Positions 29,263 through 55,633 of a stretch of DNA of 64,000 nucleotides are shown piece after piece (position 1 is the first letter of the stretch; every line of letters starts with the position of its first letter). This stretch comes from Diaporthe sp. PMI_573 (Eukaryota > Ascomycota > Sordariomycetes > Diaporthales > Diaporthaceae). Both the position numbers and the translations under genes were made by a program. The stretch spans positions 372,001-436,000 of the forward strand of contig JAJTUP010000045.1 of the NCBI GenBank assembly GCA_021399435.1, read 5' to 3'. The notes below the pieces were generated by a model. That model was not told where the DNA came from. It was given only the letters and a program-made list of their open reading frames with translations, and made no database searches.

Positions 29263-30003
29263 CTACGACCAAAGATCCCGCCCAGGCTCTCGAAGCAGCC
29301 TGCACTCGGAGGGGGACGAAACAGAGGCTTCAAGCCGTTGCTGGTAAGGGTCTTGCAGAGGTATAGAAAGGGAACAGATCCAAATTATGTTGAAGAGGAC
29401 AATCTGTAGCCTGATGACCTTCGCTCAGCCAGATGCCCACGATCTCCAGTATCCACCGAACCATACCCAGGCTCTTTCGTCGGCCGTGGACGACGAGTAG
29501 AGATCCTGTCGCAGTGGTATGGTCGCAGATTCACTGGTCGCAGGTCATCATGGACCGTGAGCAGGTGATACACGGCATCTGCCAGATGTGGGTGCCTTGG
29601 AATCGATGATCTCGTGTAAAAAAAGGCTTGGATTGCAGAGTGTAAGGCGTTGGCGATGGTGACCATTGACAGACGTGATGGAGAGGGACGAGTTTTGGGA
29701 GCAAAAGATGGGGCGTTTACCTCAGGCAACATGATTCGTATCACTCCGTTAAAGGCCGATGGGTTTCACTGTAAGCAGTGGTGTCTCGGTAGGGTACCTT
29801 CCAGAGCGCACCATGATTGGATTAGTACAGAAGTGGGTCCGCACCGCCTCAAGTTATGCCCAAAGCCATGACGTTCGGGCTTTGCTGACTAATTTAAGGT
29901 CGTGGCGCAGTCTTTGCAGCTTAGCGGCTTGGGATCGGGCTGAAAGGGACGCGCACTTCCCTTTCGCTTCTTTCCGCCTCACATTGAGAGCACACCATCC
30001 ACA

Positions 30004-32395
30004 ATGGCAGACCCACTGCGGTCGAAAATCATTGAGGAAAATCCGATTGGGAACGGCCTCGATGCTTTTCGCGCTTTATACAAATCGGTCTGTAAGGACA
30101 AGAGGATCCCGTGCACGCCAGACGCGCTCGGTCAACTCGGCCTCGAAGGTATGGCCAGCCACCTTCGCTGTATATGCTTCTCTGACTGTTATGCTAGATC
30201 TCCGGAAACTCGTACTAGCCTTTCTATCGGCGGCGCAAAACTTTCCTGCCGCCCGCCTGCTACCTGCGAGGGCGGTTCGCGGCACCCTCCGAAGCGACCT
30301 TCTGCGACTTGAGCTCTCCCTCGACTCTGACGACTACGACCTCGACCGCGTCACACCTCTCCTGAAAGCAGCGCTTGCCGACGATTCAGAGGATGCGCTC
30401 ATCTGGGACCGAGTGTACAGCGCCGTCACAGAATCCACTCCACCGCCCCGACCGGTAGCGTCCTCTCTTCAGCAAACCCCGTGGCTGCGCAACACCAGCA
30501 GCTTCGCCAACTCATCTGAACATCGCAAATATGTGGATAACGTGCTTAAGGAGGAGCTCGGCCCTATGTATGTCGACCTCCCGGACTTTCACGAGACCTA
30601 CTTTGGCGACGTACCGAACCTTGAGACCGCGTCGAAGACCTTCTTCGGAGAATGTTCCCAAGGCAGCAACCCGCTCTTCAACAACGGCTGGACGAAATGG
30701 CCGAGAGAAGCGAAACAAGATGATGTACTAAGCTGGTTCGCGGACTTCAGCGAGAAGCTCGCGGCGTTTGCAGAGCGCTACGGGCTAACGCCAACACGCC
30801 GACGAAGACCCTTAGCGAAGCCTGATAAACCGATCGACGGCTCTGTCGGCAAACGAAAGATGGACGTCGGCTTCGTGAACGACCCTACAGCAAACAAAGA
30901 CTCGAGGTGCCACTGGGACCAAATCCTGATTCCTGGAGAACTGAAGAGCAACCCATCCGCCGATATACCGTCAGAGGCGCGGCTTGACCTCGGCAGATAC
31001 GCGAGGGAAGTGTTTGGTGCGCAGGGCAACCGCCGCTTTGTTCTGGGTTTTACCCTCTGCGGATCTCTCATGAGGGTATGGGCTTTTGATCGGCTTGGGG
31101 GCATTGCCTCGGAACTATTCGACATCAACACGGACGGGCTGCGGTTTGTGTCTACGATCCTCGGGTTCCTCTGGATGAGCGACGAGCAGCTTGGGTTCGA
31201 CCCAACAATTATAACGGCAAACGGGCAACAGTTCATCGAGATCGAACGGGAGGGTCGGAAAGAACGGCTTGTCCTTGAAAAGGTAATGAAACCTGCACGC
31301 TGCATTGCCGGCCGTGCGACGACTTGCTGGAGAGCCCATCGCGAAGCGGACCCGCACACCCCGATCGTTGTCAAAGACTCGTGGCAATACGTGGAGCGCG
31401 AGCAGGAGGGCAAGTTGCTTCGGGAGGCGACCGACAAGGGTGTGGTCCACGTGGCCCGGTATTATTACCACGAGACCGTTCAGGTACGGGGTGCGGATGA
31501 TGATGTTCGAGGCAATGTTCGCAAGGAATTGGATGTCACGAAGGCTACGAACTACCGGCGGGACCGATCGGCACTTGCGCCAAGCACGGGTGCGGCAGTC
31601 ACACTACGGGGAGGTCGAAGTAGCAGCATCGCTGGCGCGAAGAGGTCGTCCAGCCAAGCTGGTGCCCCTCTGCCGCCCAGCAAGCGGGCCTGTTCTACAT
31701 CCCCGACCAAAACTGGCAGCGATCCGCTGCCAAATCGAGTACATCGGCGTGTCGTTCTTCGCGACTACGGAGTCCCTATCTACGAGGTGGGCTCTCGAGA
31801 AACGCTACTTACCGCGCTGGCCGACTGCATTAAAGGGCATGAGTCGCTGCGGCGACAAGCTGGCCTCCTTCACAGAGATATCTCGGTCGGCAACCTCATG
31901 ATCGACAAGGACAATCGCGGGTTCTTGATTGACTTGGATCTTGCCATTAAAGAGCAACGCCTTAGCGCCTCGGGAGCAAAGGGAAAGACGGGCACAAGGG
32001 CTTTCATGGCCATCGGGGCGCTTCTAGGCGAGCAGCATTCGTTCATGCACGACCTCGAGTCATTCTTCTGGGTGTTGTTCTGGATATGCATCCATTACAG
32101 TGGTCCGGGCGAAGCCATTGGCCCCACCGAGTATGAGAGCTGGAATTACGAGAGCGATGAGAAGTTGGTTGCGTCCAAAATTGGCGAGATTGCTGACGAG
32201 GAAGTTTTTCTTAAGAAGGCAGGTGAAAATTTCACATTACATTACCGACCATTGATCCCATGGGTCAACAGACTGCGGAGGGAGGTATTCCCAAACGGCG
32301 GGAGGTGGAAGAAGCTGGAGCCGGAGCTCTACTCCTCGATGAAGAAGACCCTTTGCGACGCCCTGAAGGACCTAGAGGTTTTTCAGATAGCATAG
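30004..32395 (+). CDS. FunK1-family protein kinase
   Basis: FunK1 kinases are a fungus-specific, lineage-expanded family of eukaryotic-like Ser/Thr kinases, often in accessory genomic regions. The model has exon 1 at 30004-30148 (MADPLRSKIIEENPIG), a 49-bp intron (30149-30197, GTATGG...GCTAG) and exon 2 at 30198-32395, giving 780 residues; the phases join as GLEDLRKLV. The N-terminal half carries FunK1-specific motifs (WDQILIPGELK, GFTLCGSLMRVWAFDR). The catalytic loop is LLHRDISVGNLMID (near residue 606), and the metal-binding triad is FLIDLDLA, with DLD in place of DFG as usual in this family. The activation segment GTRAFMAIGAL and the C-lobe HDLESFFWVLFWI follow. The Ser/Lys-rich linker SIAGAKRSSSQAG precedes the catalytic region. 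The frame is intact, so it is probably functional. Confidence 0.92.
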
Positions 32396-43310: not shown

Positions 43311-43886
43311 CTATCCTGCTAGCATATCCCTCCGCCGCCGCTGCTCATGGCCGCGGCGTAACCAGTTCTTGAGACATTCGTTCGCTTCAATTGTGACAGA
43401 TCCAAGCCGATTGCGTTCGTCGGTGATTAGGCGTTTGGACTGACTGAAGACACGTTCGCACTCGGCGCTCATAGCTGGGATAGAGAAAAGATCAAAAGCC
43501 ATTTGGGTTGACGATACACCTACTGAAGTATGGCTGAAATGGCCATCGAGATTCAACAAAATGGCTTCTGAAACGTCTTTACGGCGGGAATTCATTTGAG
43601 GAAGCAATACCCCCTGGAGCCACTCAACACCAATATTATTACTGGTCCAACCATTGGGAGAGGTAATGAAGCGCCAAACGGGCACTTCTCGTCGAAATTG
43701 GTCAAGAAACCACTGCTTCTGAAGCTCTTTTCCTCTGAAAATAACCCCTGGGTTGAGGGCATCGCCGTTGGCTGTGACAGCTTCAATTATCGTTGACCAC
43801 CATCGTGACTGGTCACTCTTAATCATAGCCTTTTCTGTTGCAGATGTACCTACAACCAGGGAATCAAGGCCTATAAATTTAGTCAA
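43311..43886 (-). pseudogene. Chimera: pogo-type DDE segment joined to hAT C-terminus
   Basis: One 191-codon frame joins two transposase families. Residues 1-121 match the DDE region of CENP-B/pogo-like (DDE_1) transposases: VVGTSATEKAMIKSDQSRWW, NPGVIFRGKELQKQWF, SPNGWTSNNIGVEWL, and ILLNLDGHFSHTS, which carries the second catalytic Asp. From about residue 126 the sequence becomes the hAT dimerisation region: MAFDLFSIPAMSAECERVFS ... EANECLKNWLRRG. The junction is near 43505-43525. Neither half is complete, so no transposase activity is expected; the frame across the join is nevertheless open. Confidence 0.8.
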
Positions 43887-44362
43887 TCGCGTTCAATTCA
43901 AGTATATCAATTCAAATCAAGTTAAGTAAGTTCACGGACGATTTTATTTCAAGTAATCAAGTTACACCCCCGAACTTGACTTACTTGAATTGAAGTGCAC
44001 AGGATAGACAACAACCGCAGTGCGATGGTTAAGAACTTTTCTCAGTCACCTTTTGAGACTTTGATATACTTAGCGATTCTTTGTGGACCATGAAGGACGT
44101 TTCTATTGGAAGTACCATATTATATGGAAGTACTGTAGATCTCTAAAATTCCTATTGTTTTATTTCCTGTCAAAGTATGCATTTAAGTACAGTATATCCT
44201 AGAAGGCTAATTCCTTATGTGTAAATTAAGTACAATACACCAGTTTTCGCTCAGGATTTATATATCCATTTTAGTTTCCACTTTTGAATTTTGCCCAGGA
44301 CATTTTCCCTTCCCTACAACTAGATCTGCTTCCAAATATCGCCCACAGCAGGACTAGCAAAG
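43887..44362. other. Upstream region of the SKP1-HSF gene with inverted repeat
   Basis: Around 43920-44000, TCAAATCAAGTTAAGTAAG is loosely mirrored by CTTACTTGAATTGA, with several TCAAGT motifs. The rest is A/T-rich. The region is the probable promoter and 5' UTR of the gene starting at 44363 (pyrimidine-rich CTTCCAAATATCGCCCACAG leader). Confidence 0.45.
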
Positions 44363-45839
44363 ATGCCTGGACAACAGAATATATCGCGCGAGGAGGCTCA
44401 GCTCACACTTAAATGCAACGATGGCGGTATCGTAACTGTCGAATTGCCGGTCGCTAAACGCTCTGTCCTTCTCAAGAACCTAATTGACGATATGGGTGTC
44501 GAAAAGGCAACTGCCCAGCCTGTGCCTCTTCCCAACGTAGCTCAGCCTGTCCTCGAGAAGATCGTTGAGTGGTGCAAACATCACCGTAATGATCCTCCCC
44601 CCACCCAAGATCTTAAAAGCGAGTACCGTGTTGAGAATGCTCCAATCGATGAGTGGGATCAGACGTATATGAAGGTAGATCAGGATATGCTTTTTGAGAT
44701 TCTTCTTGCCGCCAATTATTTGGACATCAAGGCACTCCTCGACCTTGGGTGCAAGACAGTTGCGAATATGATCAAAGGCAAAACTCCAGAGGAGATCCGT
44801 CGGATATTTAACATAACCAACGACTTTACACCAGGAGTTTGCTGCGAGATGGCACAGCTAGTCAGTCGCGTCGACCGAGTTGGAGAACAACCTGGCAAGA
44901 ATGGCTCTGTTCTCGCCGGGAATTCGCAAAGTTCCATCAAAGACGCCCCGCCCAGCCAATGGGGCACCCTGGGAGGCGATGGCGCCCTCATGCCGCTACC
45001 CAACGAAGCGCTGAGCGAGGAGGAGCATCTCAGACTTCTCCTGGAGCACGCGAGGAAGATCGAGGAGGAGGCCACAAAAAGGAAACCCGGACCAAACCAG
45101 AAGAGGAGTATCCCGCCGTTCGTGCTGAAGCTCTCCAGGTTTGTATTCTACCCGACATACGGCACCGCGCCCGGACGACTCCCGCTGACTGCTTTACAGC
45201 TTTCTCAACAATGGTAGCAACAACGATCTCATCCGGTGGTCAGAGAAGGGCGACTCGTTCATCGTGCTCGACGAGGAGGAATTCGCGAAGAAGCTGATAC
45301 CCGAGATGTTCAAGCACAACAACTACGCCTCGTTTGTCCGCCAGCTAAACATATACGGGTTTCGCAAGCGAGTCGGGCTGTCCGACGACTCCATGAGAGC
45401 GAGCGAGAAGAAATACAAGAGCCCAAGCGAATATGCGCACTCCTATTTCCTGCGGGCTCACCCGGTCCTGCAATGGCTCATCACGAAGCCGAACAAGACC
45501 GACGGCAAAAAGAGGCAGAAGCAGGCCAGCAAGGATTCGTCGGGAGCTTTCGAGCAGGATAGCGACGCCGAGGACTTCATGGACGGCCCCGCCGGCCAGC
45601 ACGCTCTCCCCGACATCCATCCAGGCAGGAATGTAGGGCGCGGTGAGGTTGGGCCATTGGCGAAGACAGAGATGGGGAGGCTGCGAGAGGAGCTCACGCA
45701 GGTCCAGCAAAAGCAGCAGCAATGTCTAGCCCTCATCCAGCAACTACAAAACAATCAACACGAGATGGCATCTGCAATTTCGACCTGGAGCAGGCATGAG
45801 ATAGTGTTTCGTGCCATTCCGTACGGGCCGTCCTCTTGA
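44363..45839 (+). CDS. SKP1-HSF fusion protein
   Basis: Exon 1 (44363-45138) and exon 2 (45200-45839), with a 61-bp intron (GTTTGT...TTACAG, branch GCTGAC), encode 471 residues. Residues 1-157 are Skp1, the F-box adaptor of SCF ubiquitin ligases: the POZ fold with [12 protein letters not shown], then [40 protein letters not shown]. Skp1 stops at ITNDFTP, before its final F-box-contacting helices. A linker (158-248) with a charged helix ([19 protein letters not shown]) leads to a complete heat-shock-factor DNA-binding domain (249-357): [31 protein letters not shown]. The intron lies inside this domain. A heptad coiled coil follows (about 405-450; [20 protein letters not shown]). The usual HSF activation tail is missing. 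The frame is open throughout, so the fusion is potentially expressed. Confidence 0.88.
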
Positions 45840-45858
45840 TGCGCAGCCGAGTAAAGAA

Positions 45859-47388
45859 TCACTCAACGAAGGTAGGGGAAATGCAAGAAGGTACTAGTTT
45901 GGATCGGGAATTAAATGTTTCGATATGAGATCTCCCCTCTTCAAGCCACGGTTCAGCTCGCTGGGTGATAAACTGCCACCAGGCTGGGCCAACCTTTAGA
46001 CCAAAGGGTAGGACTTTCCATTGGAAGGTACCTTGACGGGTGCGGAATGCTGTCAGGTATTCAGAGCCAACAGCTATACGGAGTCGGTGGAAGGCCTGGA
46101 TAATATCAATCTTTGAAAAGCGGCGGGCGTTTCGGCAGTTAAAGACCGTTCCATTCAGGTCAGGCGCTGGGACAAGGCGGTTCTTAAGAAACTGGTTGCG
46201 CCAGCGGTAGTCGATACAGAATCGTCGGTCTGGGGAATGCGGCTTTGGGACAAACAGTACTGGGGCTGCGTCTGTTCTCATACAGCGCTCAATGAATCCC
46301 AGCTTCAGCAGCTTATCTGTCGTCTCCTTCTCTAATGGCAGGAACTGGACTGGTGTGCGGTATGAGGGCGGACCGGTTGCTGGCAGCGGCCCCTCAAGCT
46401 CAAGGACTACATCGTGTTCAGGGCGGTGTGGCGGTAACGTGTCGGCTTCTTTCTTTGAGAAGAACCCTTCCAGGTGGGCTAGTGCTTTTGGCACGCGGTC
46501 TCTCACAAATTGAACATGTTCCGGGTCTTCGTCAGCCGGGAACGGGATCTTCTTGCCGTCAAATGTCTTCGAGCTGCCCAGGGCGGCGAGAGTCACCGTG
46601 TTGGTATCCAGCTGACTGCTGTCAAACTTGATCACCTCTTTAGGTAGGGGTGAGTGCTCCCAACGCTTCCTGCGAGGGTCTGCTTCTAGCCTTGCAGCAA
46701 GTGCGGAGATGACGGCTTCGTCCTCTACAGCTTCCATAGCCGAGGGGGCTGCTGCCGCTTTGGGGTGTTCGGTGGTTTTCACGGGCCCGCCGTTGGTCGA
46801 ATTCGGGCTTGGGACGTCTTTTCTCCAGGAGCGGCGCAGGATCTGGTACTGCTTGTGGGTTTTCTGCAGATTAGCATCGCGCCGGTCGGCATCTTCCTGG
46901 ACCCCTGGGTCGATCAACCCGTCGGATAGGCAACCGGGTGGAAGCTGGATAGCTGGAGAGTACTTCGCCAGGGCGGGGAGGTCGTCAGGCCACACCATCC
47001 CTCTTCTATGGCAGTCCAGCAGGACATGCTGTCGTGCCAGCCATTCCATTCCGATGAAGACGTCATGCCCTGTTTCGGTGATCCAGAACTTCTGGTTTGG
47101 GAATCGACGTCCGTCGATTTCTAATGTGATCGTCATATACTTAGCAATCCGTCCTGCCGGTTGCTTGCGGTAGTCTTGGAGCTGTAAAGGTTGATCTAAT
47201 TGGATCGTCTTTGCTCTGAGTTGCTTTCTCGCCCTGCGGGCGGCTTCTGGGCTCATCAAGAGCTCGGCTTGTGCTCCTGTGTCTACAAGAGCGGCGGCTG
47301 CAAAACCAATACCATTGACTTGGAGCTGAACGGTCTTAGTGAATGGTTTCTGTCTTGATTGGCTGCCAACCTGTGCTAATGTGGACAT
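45859..47388 (-). pseudogene. Ty3/gypsy protease-RT fragment
   Basis: Fragment of a gypsy-type polyprotein. It contains a retropepsin (AAALVDTGAQAELLMSP; TETGHDVFIGMEWL), a linker, and the N-terminal half of reverse transcriptase (PVQFLPLEKETTDKLLKLGF, RFCIDYRWRNQFL, FSKIDIIQAFHRLRI, FRTRQGTFQWKVLPFGL). RT stops just after WQFI, before the catalytic xxDD box, near 45965. Gag, RNase H, integrase and LTRs are absent. The truncated RT end lies about 130 bp from the 3' end of the SKP1-HSF gene, tail to tail. Confidence 0.9.
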
Positions 47389-47536
47389 CTGGACCGTCGT
47401 GGAGACTTCCGACGGTCTTAGTCTTTTCCCGACTCCTCTGCTCTCTTGTCATCTACTCTTCTCTTGCCTTCAGACTTAGCATGGCTCCGCTAATCTGTAG
47501 AGTAATTAATGCTCTCGGCCAGGGGATTCCCAATGC

Positions 47537-53035: not shown

Positions 53036-55408
53036 CTATGTTTCCTTGCCCCTATCGTCGTTGCTGACGTCGATGTCGTCAACGTCGTCAGCCTCTAGGT
53101 CTATAGAGGGCCGCTGGTTGACAGTCTGCCGCCCCGTCCGCTGCCTCTTAGCCGGTTGCCTTGAGCTTGAGGGTATACCCACAAGCGCTGCCGGCGCTGA
53201 GGACGTCAGCCCAGATCGTCGCTTCTGCGCCCTCCCTTGAGCATTTCTGCGGTTGAGGTCCTCGTCGTCTAGAGACTGGAGCGTTGTATCGTTGTGCTCC
53301 CACGCCGAGTTGATCCTCTGAACTGAGGCTGTCGTCGCCCTCGTTTTGTCGCCTGCTTTGCTGCCCAGACTGGTCGTCGTGGAGGAGGTCTGCTTCGCCA
53401 TAATTGCTCTTGTGAAGGCGCCTTCCTCGCTAGTCGCAAACGTAGCGGTCTCGCGAGGCCGTCCCTTCGTCGCCGTGACCCTCTTCGGCGAGAGGACTGT
53501 CAGCAGCAGGTTTCCGCTCGAGAGATCGCGATCAAGCCAGTAGACTTCGTGAACATCTGCCCTCTCGAGAGGGAGGTTTGCTTCTTCTCTATCGGCCATC
53601 CGGCTTGCACAGATTAAGCCGTACTGCGTGTAGATAGGGCAAGTGCAGCTGAGGGCATTGCAACGTCGTGGAAGCTTGTTTTTGAGGATTTGAAGCGCCT
53701 GCTGCCTGGTCCTCACGAGAAGCTCAAGGGCTGCCCACGAGACTTGGAAGGGCAGCCTTCCGAGCCAACTAAGCCCATTGTACTTCGCAAGTGAGGCTGT
53801 CTTCTGACGGGCTTCCTCCACAAGGAAGCCACGAGCAGTGTCCTCTAGAGCCTCGTGGCAAGCCTCAACCAAATAGAGGGCATTGCCTATCCCGTGGCCC
53901 AAATAGACCTTGAGTTTGCGGTGCATACTCTCCGTAGAGGAGGTTGTACGCAAGCCGAAGTTGAGGATTCTGCAGGTCTGATGGGCAGCCCATTTGCCGA
54001 CGATCTGCTCCTCGTCGTCAACATAGTAGGTCTTGAGATAGTTGAGAATTGCTTTCTGGTCCTTAAACTTCTCTTGCAGACGCTGCCAAGCCGTATCGTA
54101 GACCTCACGATCTGTAGAGTATTCCATAAACTTGAGGAGGTCAAATAGTGCCTGTCGGGTATAGGGGATATCCTTGAGCTTGGGAACCTTTGTAGAAATC
54201 GTCGCCTTGTTTCTCGCCGGCGCATTGAGAGAGGCTATCGCCGCTTCTGCTTCCTCCTCTTCGGCATCTTCTGTTTCCTCTTCCGCTTCCTCTTCCCCTG
54301 GCGCTGTCGGCTTCTGCCACTTCTTCTTGATGTTGAGGACAATGTTCATGTTCATATGGAAGACGCACAGCTGATGGTGCGCCTGAGGAAACTCGTATTC
54401 GAGGGCATTCATCAGAGCGTTATCGTAGTCAGTGATGAAGAGGGTTGGGTCGTCAGCTTTGTACTCCTTCAGGAGGAGGTGAACTTGCTCGAGGAGCCAT
54501 CGGAAGCCGCTTTCTCGCTCGTTATCGATGATCCCCTGAAATAGAGGAAGGTTCTTCTTCGTGTGGGTCACTGCTGTCCCCTGGAAGAACGGCATCTTCT
54601 TGTTGTTAGTCGAATATGTACAGTCAAGTGAGAGGCATCGTGAGAAACGTCGTTCTCGGATCCAAGCCATCTGCTGCTTCTCGCACCAGAAGATGCCCGT
54701 GACCCTGCCCTCGACGTCCCGAGCAAACCGGTACCAGCAGTCCTTCTCTTCGAGGAACCTCAGCGCTGCTTGGGTCGGGGTATAGATACCTTGCTTCTCC
54801 TTCCGGAAGCGAGCCAGCCAGTCCTTCATTGTATTCGGCCCCAGCTGTACCTGAGGGTATTCTCGGCGAAGGGCAGCCTCAAGTTTCTTCGGCTTCGCGA
54901 GCGACGGGTCCCGAGCGGTCCGAGCGAGAAAGTCGTGATGTTCGTCTGTGAGTTTTGTCCAACCACGCTGGGCTTCAGGCACGACTTGAGGACCGTGACA
55001 GCAGTGTCTATGCTCTTGGATCACAAGCTTCCACTTGCCTGACGTCGACTTGGTCTTATTGGCAATCGCTCGCCATTTGCAGCCGGCTTTAATCGTTGAG
55101 GCGTTGTTTCTTGTGGCGGTTGAGGGTCGTGGTGCACCTCGGCTACACCCCAACGTCACTACATCCGGCTTGGATCTCTGAGCGACTGTCAACCACCCTG
55201 CAAGCTTCGTAGCCTCATCTAAATCAGCCTTGAGGTCGGCATAAGTATCGTATCCATCATTGAAGAGTTTTAGATACATAGGAGGATTGGAAAGTGCTGG
55301 GCGGCGGTGGTTTGTGGCGGTGATGCTGCCGTTCCATTGCTGGCAGTCTGTCTGCCACTGCGCCTCGAGCCCCGAGTAGTCCGGATACTCTGACACCGCT
55401 GTAACCAC
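53036..55408 (-). CDS. MULE transposase
   Basis: Catalyses excision and insertion of the element. The order is: FAR1/WRKY-GCM1-like zinc finger (Cys 88 and 110, HRHCCHG near 133-139), then the MULE DDE core with Asp 262 (LSLDCTYS), Asp 327 (LFITDYDN, followed by HHQLCVFHMN) and Glu 493 (SSTESMHRK). A helical insertion with an acidic run (EEEAEEETEDAEEEEAEAA) separates the second and third acids. A SWIM-like C-x-C motif follows (ALSCTCPIYTQYGL, about 592-605). The C-terminal tail is basic and Ser-rich (AKRQRTGRQ). At 790 residues without stops or introns, it is full length for fungal MULEs. Confidence 0.93.
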   Translation of the reverse strand: MVTAVSEYPDYSGLEAQWQTDCQQWNGSITATNHRRPALSNPPMYLKLFNDGYDTYADLKADLDEATKLAGWLTVAQRSKPDVVTLGCSRGAPRPSTATRNNASTIKAGCKWRAIANKTKSTSGKWKLVIQEHRHCCHGPQVVPEAQRGWTKLTDEHHDFLARTARDPSLAKPKKLEAALRREYPQVQLGPNTMKDWLARFRKEKQGIYTPTQAALRFLEEKDCWYRFARDVEGRVTGIFWCEKQQMAWIRERRFSRCLSLDCTYSTNNKKMPFFQGTAVTHTKKNLPLFQGIIDNERESGFRWLLEQVHLLLKEYKADDPTLFITDYDNALMNALEYEFPQAHHQLCVFHMNMNIVLNIKKKWQKPTAPGEEEAEEETEDAEEEEAEAAIASLNAPARNKATISTKVPKLKDIPYTRQALFDLLKFMEYSTDREVYDTAWQRLQEKFKDQKAILNYLKTYYVDDEEQIVGKWAAHQTCRILNFGLRTTSSTESMHRKLKVYLGHGIGNALYLVEACHEALEDTARGFLVEEARQKTASLAKYNGLSWLGRLPFQVSWAALELLVRTRQQALQILKNKLPRRCNALSCTCPIYTQYGLICASRMADREEANLPLERADVHEVYWLDRDLSSGNLLLTVLSPKRVTATKGRPRETATFATSEEGAFTRAIMAKQTSSTTTSLGSKAGDKTRATTASVQRINSAWEHNDTTLQSLDDEDLNRRNAQGRAQKRRSGLTSSAPAALVGIPSSSRQPAKRQRTGRQTVNQRPSIDLEADDVDDIDVSNDDRGKET

Positions 55409-55633
55409 ATAGGATTGAAGTTTGACCAGCTAGGGGGTATTTTTGATGCTGAATCGATTGATTCCAACAGTCAATTAGTCGGTATCACGAAGCGTTGAGG
55501 GTGGGCGCGAGGGTTGAGGTTGGTGCGATGAGGAGGAATAGCAAGCGTGATCTGAGGCTGCATTCGGGCTGCAAAACGCACTGGGTTGCGTGGCCCGGGC
55601 TGGGCAAATGAAGCGTTCTGATTGGCTGCAGCA

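Follow-up and report, generated by a model that had tools for sequence, protein, structure and literature searches.

Whether an open reading frame that joins most of Skp1 to the DNA-binding domain of a heat shock factor (HSF) is a working gene or the outcome of shuffled gene copies is the question raised by this locus in Diaporthe sp. PMI_573. The frame lies in the window, by which is meant the whole stretch of 64,000 nucleotides that was analysed. With a probability of roughly 0.8, the locus is judged to be a young mosaic of amplified host-gene pieces in a repeat-rich compartment, probably unselected and with no established function. As selection has left no mark of conservation on the HSF half, the chimera most probably arose as a by-product of shuffling among gene copies and does not yet work as a protein; roles as a dominant-negative HSF or as a tether for SCF would be possible, if unsupported.

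Architecture of the chimeric gene

The gene model, obtained by direct reading and rebuilt by script, has two exons on the forward strand with 471 codons and one stop, and starts with an ATG at 44363. Exon 1 (44363-45138) and exon 2 (45200-45839) flank a predicted intron of 61 nt (45139-45199, forward strand, GTTTGT...GCTGAC...ACAG), whose position in the DNA alignment is the same in the chimera, the resident HSF and four accessory HSF copies. The in-frame Skp1-HSF fusion claimed in the initial annotation was confirmed by the direct reading, the script and Pfam alike. The overall order of the mosaic is Skp1, about 106 bp of a low-copy repeat, HSF, a foreign tail and a gypsy-type element.

The first 157 residues (44363-44832, forward strand) are Skp1, as had been stated, with Skp1_POZ (PF03931) at residues 14-76 (62.9 bits) and Skp1 (PF01466) at residues 123-157 (71.5 bits). 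The latter match covers profile positions 1-35 of 48 and the final 13 are absent; homology ends at NDFTP, and the end stretch that reads EEEEQIRRENEWAEDR in the resident is missing. The proposed cut before the last helix of Skp1 is thus borne out, and the helix that is absent belongs to the F-box interface. The C-terminal helix of Skp1 has a role in F-box binding. The NYLDIK stretch, which we take to have a role in cullin binding, is kept, and nearly invariant positions are altered by K101T, E108D and T148I. All solved-structure matches of exon 1 were Skp1 proteins (33 distinct sequences), the best spanning residues 13-157. The likeness to Skp1 as the SCF subunit (scon-3/sconC) extends over those residues; the chimera differs in lacking the last stretch and in being fused to a DNA-binding domain. 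The region 5′ of the Skp1 part (44228-44362, forward strand), a putative proximal promoter and 5′UTR, travels with the Skp1 copy: in the own-genome DNA search a match of about 80% ran from 44228 continuously into the coding part at 7 other places.

Residues 158-192 belong to neither Skp1 nor HSF and are encoded by a scrap of a low-copy repeat (44832-44937, forward strand) that matched contigs C164, C188 and C200. HSF homology begins at about residue 193, near 44938 with an uncertainty of a few bp, and from there to the end of exon 1 (44938-45138, forward strand) an N-terminal part of HSF and the start of the DNA-binding domain align with the resident and the four accessory HSFs. The remaining DNA-binding domain, extending to about 45494, is supplied by exon 2 together with the opening part of the HR-A coiled coil (45200-45764, forward strand). 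The DNA-binding domain at residues 249-357, approximately, was correctly recognised initially and scored 95.9 bits with HSF_DNA-bind (PF00447) in exon 2, over profile positions 5-98 of 100; E-values for the three Pfam domains range from 3.2e-17 to 2.3e-27. Solved-structure matches of exon 2 were all heat shock factors (18 distinct sequences), and around the DNA-reading helix the chimera resembles the solved HSFs.

Downstream of this point the gene departs from HSF. Homology to the resident stops at QLQNNQHE, where the resident runs on as EIVQRAQKFEEMHHRHENSITAILNFLANVFRKSL and the chimera has an unrelated tail instead (45765-45839, forward strand), common to the four accessory HSFs up to 45802 and ending in the stop at 45837-45839. 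Of the coiled coil that had been described after the DNA-binding domain, the first part of HR-A therefore stands, and the complete HR-A/B trimerisation coiled coil is absent. The C-terminal activation region is absent too, as had been noted; in the resident HSF the open frame that holds exon 2 has 607 codons, and the HSF proteins examined that are named from other Diaporthe species are 770-778 aa (P0002, P0003, P0004, P0006) or 549 aa (P0005) long. Compared with HSF1 of Diaporthe and other Sordariomycetes, the chimera shares by homology the DNA-binding domain and the opening part of HR-A; it lacks the HSF's own N-terminal region, the later coiled coil and the activation tail, and has Skp1 in front.

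The HSF tail passes into the gypsy-type element across a junction at 45802-45974. A frame of that element on the reverse strand (45859-47448) holds an aspartyl protease and a partial reverse transcriptase and is apparently broken. Three further frames were observed in the window. A 193-aa stop-to-stop frame adjoining the fusion (43311-43892, reverse strand) is itself an in-frame chimera of a DDE_1 (pogo/Tc1-type) piece and a hAT C-terminal dimerisation piece, an open 797-aa frame at 53036-55429 (reverse strand) has a MULE transposase domain, and an open 880-aa frame at 29753-32392 (forward strand) has a Pkinase_fungal domain (473 bits).

An AlphaFold2 model of exon 1, built on an alignment of 42 sequences, had a mean pLDDT of 74.4. 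Blocks of Skp1 residues 11-150 reached a pLDDT of at least 80 except for 81-90 (53), the linker was modelled as a doubtful helix at 157-173 (block means 62, 60 and 49) at the site of Skp1's last helix, and residues 176-214 fell below 50. If made, the product would consist of the Skp1 BTB-like domain minus its last helix, a flexible linker, the HSF DNA-binding domain and a coiled-coil stub, and its binding to heat-shock elements would be weak at best and largely that of a monomer.

Sister copies of HSF and SKP1

The genome of Diaporthe sp. PMI_573 is large, as its assembly amounts to 83.7 Mb (217 contigs) against the 51.4 Mb given for a D. amygdali genome. An own-genome search located HSF-family sequence at 13 places: the resident (C174), the window, four truncated accessory copies (C82, C147, C29 and C183), five loci with a 43-codon scrap, and two distant matches (C68 and C57). 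Further scraps in C155, C159 and C200 were found by the DNA search, in which 40 of 94 candidates were scored and all counts are lower bounds. Several scraps are nearly identical to the window, over 253 bp in C200 (99.2%), 126 bp at five loci (99-100%) and 507 bp in C155 (99.8%). The four accessory HSFs (L045-L048), 98-99% alike, have a common derived 3′ tail, and in all four the DNA-reading helix has changed from QLNMYGF to QLHIYRF, against QLNIYGF in the chimera. In an HSF tree of 11 rows the chimera grouped with the accessory protein P0007 (99/96) inside a Diaporthe set (99/99) of 9 rows, one of which (P0001) is without a species name. P0007 itself is a 376-aa truncated HSF of Diaporthe sp. 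PMI_573 in the database; its start and its tail are foreign, and it belongs to a cluster of 5.

A query of Skp1 plus linker matched 46 places in the assembly, some in the HSF part only and others short or weak. Matches over residues 1 to 156-158 were found in the resident (C152), C6, C29, C155 and C170, six copies end at residue 134 and the C187 copy at 148. The nearest long DNA match of the Skp1 half is C6 (87%), a copy with 2 stops, both TAG. In a Skp1 tree of 6 rows only, the fork of the chimera with P0122 was weak (82/85). Synonymous sites of the accessory Skp1 family are saturated or nearly so relative to the resident SKP1, and some members are full-length in the database (P0122, P0123); the family could be an old expansion.

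The copy units are 98-99% identical for HSF and 99.4-99.9% for the Skp1 copies cut at 134, yet their ends vary, which points to segmental mosaic duplication and argues against one clean transposon. Transduplication, in which a DNA transposon (hAT, MULE or Helitron) captured and moved SKP1 and HSF and the fusion was made inside the element, is an alternative that we regard as unlikely. It would fit the hAT and MULE pieces inside the window and the 126-bp HSF scrap within a unit present at five loci, and there is a precedent in fungi, the capture and amplification of histone H3 through hAT transduplication (PMC6710886). Against it stand the variable ends of the common units, the lack of any inverted repeat of at least 60 bases within the window, and the intron retained by the HSF copies, which sets them apart from the H3 case. 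The two cases are alike in that a conserved host gene has multiplied into partial copies dispersed through a repeat-enlarged fungal genome, and hAT sequences also lie near the chimera. They differ in that two genes are amplified and joined here, HSF copies keep their intron, three young duplicate pairs have no clear RIP, and no single carrier element is evident at the chimera locus (PMC6710886). A further likeness is the capture of genes by Helitrons, reported from Pleurotus ostreatus and other fungi, in which fragments of host genes were taken up and spread (PMC4289320). In the literature searched on chimeric genes and Diaporthe repeats these two were the only precedents found, and a full-text literature search found no earlier report of a Skp1-HSF fusion.

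Two other candidates are not favoured. For Starship cargo, 53 DUF3435 matches were found genome-wide and none on the window's contig, C158, and such an element could be broken. For RIP decay, transitions in CpA/TpG context numbered 1/9, 2/11 and 0/1 in the three young duplicate pairs and 5/41 between the window and the C82 HSF, which gives no clear sign of RIP; they were 20/50 between the window and the C6 Skp1 with its two TAG stops, where there may have been some RIP-like change.

Selection on the two halves

Nei-Gojobori counts of the HSF half compared the window with each of the four accessory copies and with the resident. The dN/dS values against the accessory copies were 1.47, 1.35, 1.17 and 1.31, with 9.5-12.5 synonymous and 50.5-54.5 nonsynonymous differences (dS 0.058-0.077, dN 0.085-0.092), and the value against the resident was 0.24 (dS 0.294). 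Among the accessory HSFs dN/dS was 0.19-0.81, from 1-7 synonymous and 3-5 nonsynonymous differences that are too few to judge. Private changes were polarised by the resident as outgroup at sites uniform in the four accessory copies, other sites being dropped and 5 being ambiguous. On the window branch 17 private changes are nonsynonymous, falling in 15 codons, and 2 are synonymous, compared with a mean of 13.4 nonsynonymous (95% 9-17) in neutral simulations of the same spectrum, of which 4% gave at least 17; counted per changed codon, 15 were observed against a neutral 13.1. The pattern reads as neutrality or mild diversifying change, with purifying selection not detected in the HSF half. Its frame stays open in 60% of the neutral simulations, and the initial suggestion of selection, drawn from the open frame, is not supported: a 471-codon open frame says little on selection when its pieces are young.

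The Skp1 half is constrained, with 14 nonsynonymous and 18 synonymous private changes against a neutral 21 nonsynonymous (16-26), and its frame stays open in 32% of neutral runs. Of the two halves, for which dN/dS had been put forward as a check in the initial annotation, Skp1 shows constraint in its private changes and HSF has dN/dS values of 1.17-1.47 against the sisters. Private synonymous changes number 18 in about 100 sites of the Skp1 half and 2 in about 171 sites of the HSF half. The Skp1 branch is thus long and most of its constraint probably predates the fusion, which is itself probably young because the HSF half has just 2 such changes. By these counts the HSF branch would set the maximum age of the fusion, unless one was lost from the sister copies, and the share of Skp1 constraint that follows the fusion is inseparable from the earlier share.

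Some observations count against an unselected locus. The DNA-binding domain, the splice signals, the frame and the Skp1-type upstream region are all retained, the Skp1 half is under constraint, 17 nonsynonymous changes in the HSF half are matched in just 4% of neutral runs, the near-intact reading helix beside the changed sisters could be due to chance or to constraint, and a dN/dS of 1 or above fits diversifying selection equally well. A newborn chimeric regulator, made under the Skp1-type upstream region, would bind heat-shock elements and there either block Hsf1 or bring cullin, and its fast amino-acid change would reflect diversifying selection, not decay; we consider this improbable. In a wider form of this reading, host regulators such as HSF, Skp1 and perhaps MADS may be fused in frame unusually often in this genome.

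A dominant-negative or decoy HSF, occupying heat-shock elements without activating because the activation tail is lacking, is very improbable in our estimate. The strong HSF_DNA-bind score, the surroundings of the reading helix, close to those of solved HSFs, and a 471-aa product that ends soon after the first part of HR-A would all suit such a role. A dominant-negative HSF is expected to need trimerisation, and with the later coiled coil missing both trimerisation and high-affinity binding appear doubtful. The lack of detectable purifying selection on the HSF half speaks against the role as well, and so does the result for the 471-aa query, whose best 120 hits, of 1,434, include no protein that combines the two halves, a set in which the same two-domain order, proposed initially as something to seek in related genomes, was not recovered. 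Among the best 120 of 5,442 hits to the Skp1-half query, P0121 (153 aa) is identical to residues 5-157. This database protein from the window's contig has no start methionine and ends where Skp1 homology ends, and the DNA codon directly after its end is a sense codon; the P0121 model speaks, if weakly, against a fusion transcript that is well expressed.

Junctions and probable order of joining

Four loci carry the low-copy repeat, the window and one each in C164, C188 and C200. Its junction with HSF recurs in C200 (99.2% over 44832-45084), which carries more of the 5′ part of the repeat followed by the same HSF start as in the window. The start of the C200 match at the Skp1 junction was considered as a splice acceptor or unit boundary, a notion dropped since C200 has further repeat upstream. 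The junction of HSF with the gypsy-type element recurs in C155, where 45468-45974 is 99.8% identical. At the Skp1-repeat junction about 3 bases fit both sides, and among the assembly matches read this junction is present only in the window. Five matches outside the window, of the 46 places, cross residue 158 by more than one residue and none has the Skp1-repeat join: C14 and C63 are normal Skp1 ends, C164 and C188 are repeat without Skp1, and C183:62060 is a Skp1 scrap joined to other sequence.

An assembly artefact, by which the Skp1-linker join would not be present in the organism, is highly improbable. The restriction of this junction to the window among the matches read (40 of 94 candidates scored in the DNA search) and a region rich in young duplicates, which assemblers can misjoin, would favour it, but the two other junctions recur in C200 and C155 and the contig of the window is 529,536 bp long. 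The Skp1 half is moreover at least 12% diverged from all the DNA copies listed, whose best matches were 88% over 175 bp and 87% over 506 bp, and so is not a swapped young duplicate. Least probable of all is an SCF tether, whose Skp1 half would recruit cullin, and F-box proteins perhaps as well, to heat-shock elements, as residues 11-150, modelled at a block pLDDT of at least 80 save for 81-90, and the retained NYLDIK stretch might allow, but which is countered by the lost final stretch with a replacement helix (157-173) in blocks of mean pLDDT 49-62, by K101T, E108D and T148I, and by the different histories of a constrained Skp1 and an HSF half without detectable constraint.

For the preferred reading, a young and probably unselected mosaic, we infer the order and mechanism of joining from the pieces, junctions and sister copies that are read directly in the assembly. 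The accessory HSF lineage would already have lost its sequence beyond the opening part of HR-A and have carried its foreign tail, and its 5′ side would have been joined to the repeat scrap. With more repeat upstream in C200, the repeat-HSF join probably came first and Skp1 later, and the window is probably the place where Skp1 replaced repeat. The 5′ end of an accessory Skp1, together with its own upstream region, would then have been joined into the repeat scrap at the fit of about 3 bases, keeping the frame by chance. The putative mechanism is illegitimate joining, at short homologies, between copies that arose by segmental duplication. The locus offers a dissected example of a two-domain gene built from amplified host-gene copies, with its pieces, likely order and sister copies readable in one assembly, and, were its expression demonstrated, it would serve as a natural trial of what fusing Skp1 to a DNA-binding domain does.

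Other composite frames were observed among the sister copies. The HSF scrap of 126 bp, which comes from the DNA-binding domain and is 99-100% identical to the window, lies inside a 278-aa open frame at five loci (L007-L011), and this frame had 7 protein hits, each covering just 13-19%. L007 has frames at 862-1155 and 1393-2226, and in L007 and L011 a MADS/SRF-like frame adjoins the 278-aa frame (in L007 at 24.8 bits, below the cut-off of 26). Another Skp1 chimera lies at L057 (C183:61800-62500), where the DNA match stops at window position 44817 and the frame continues into unrelated sequence.
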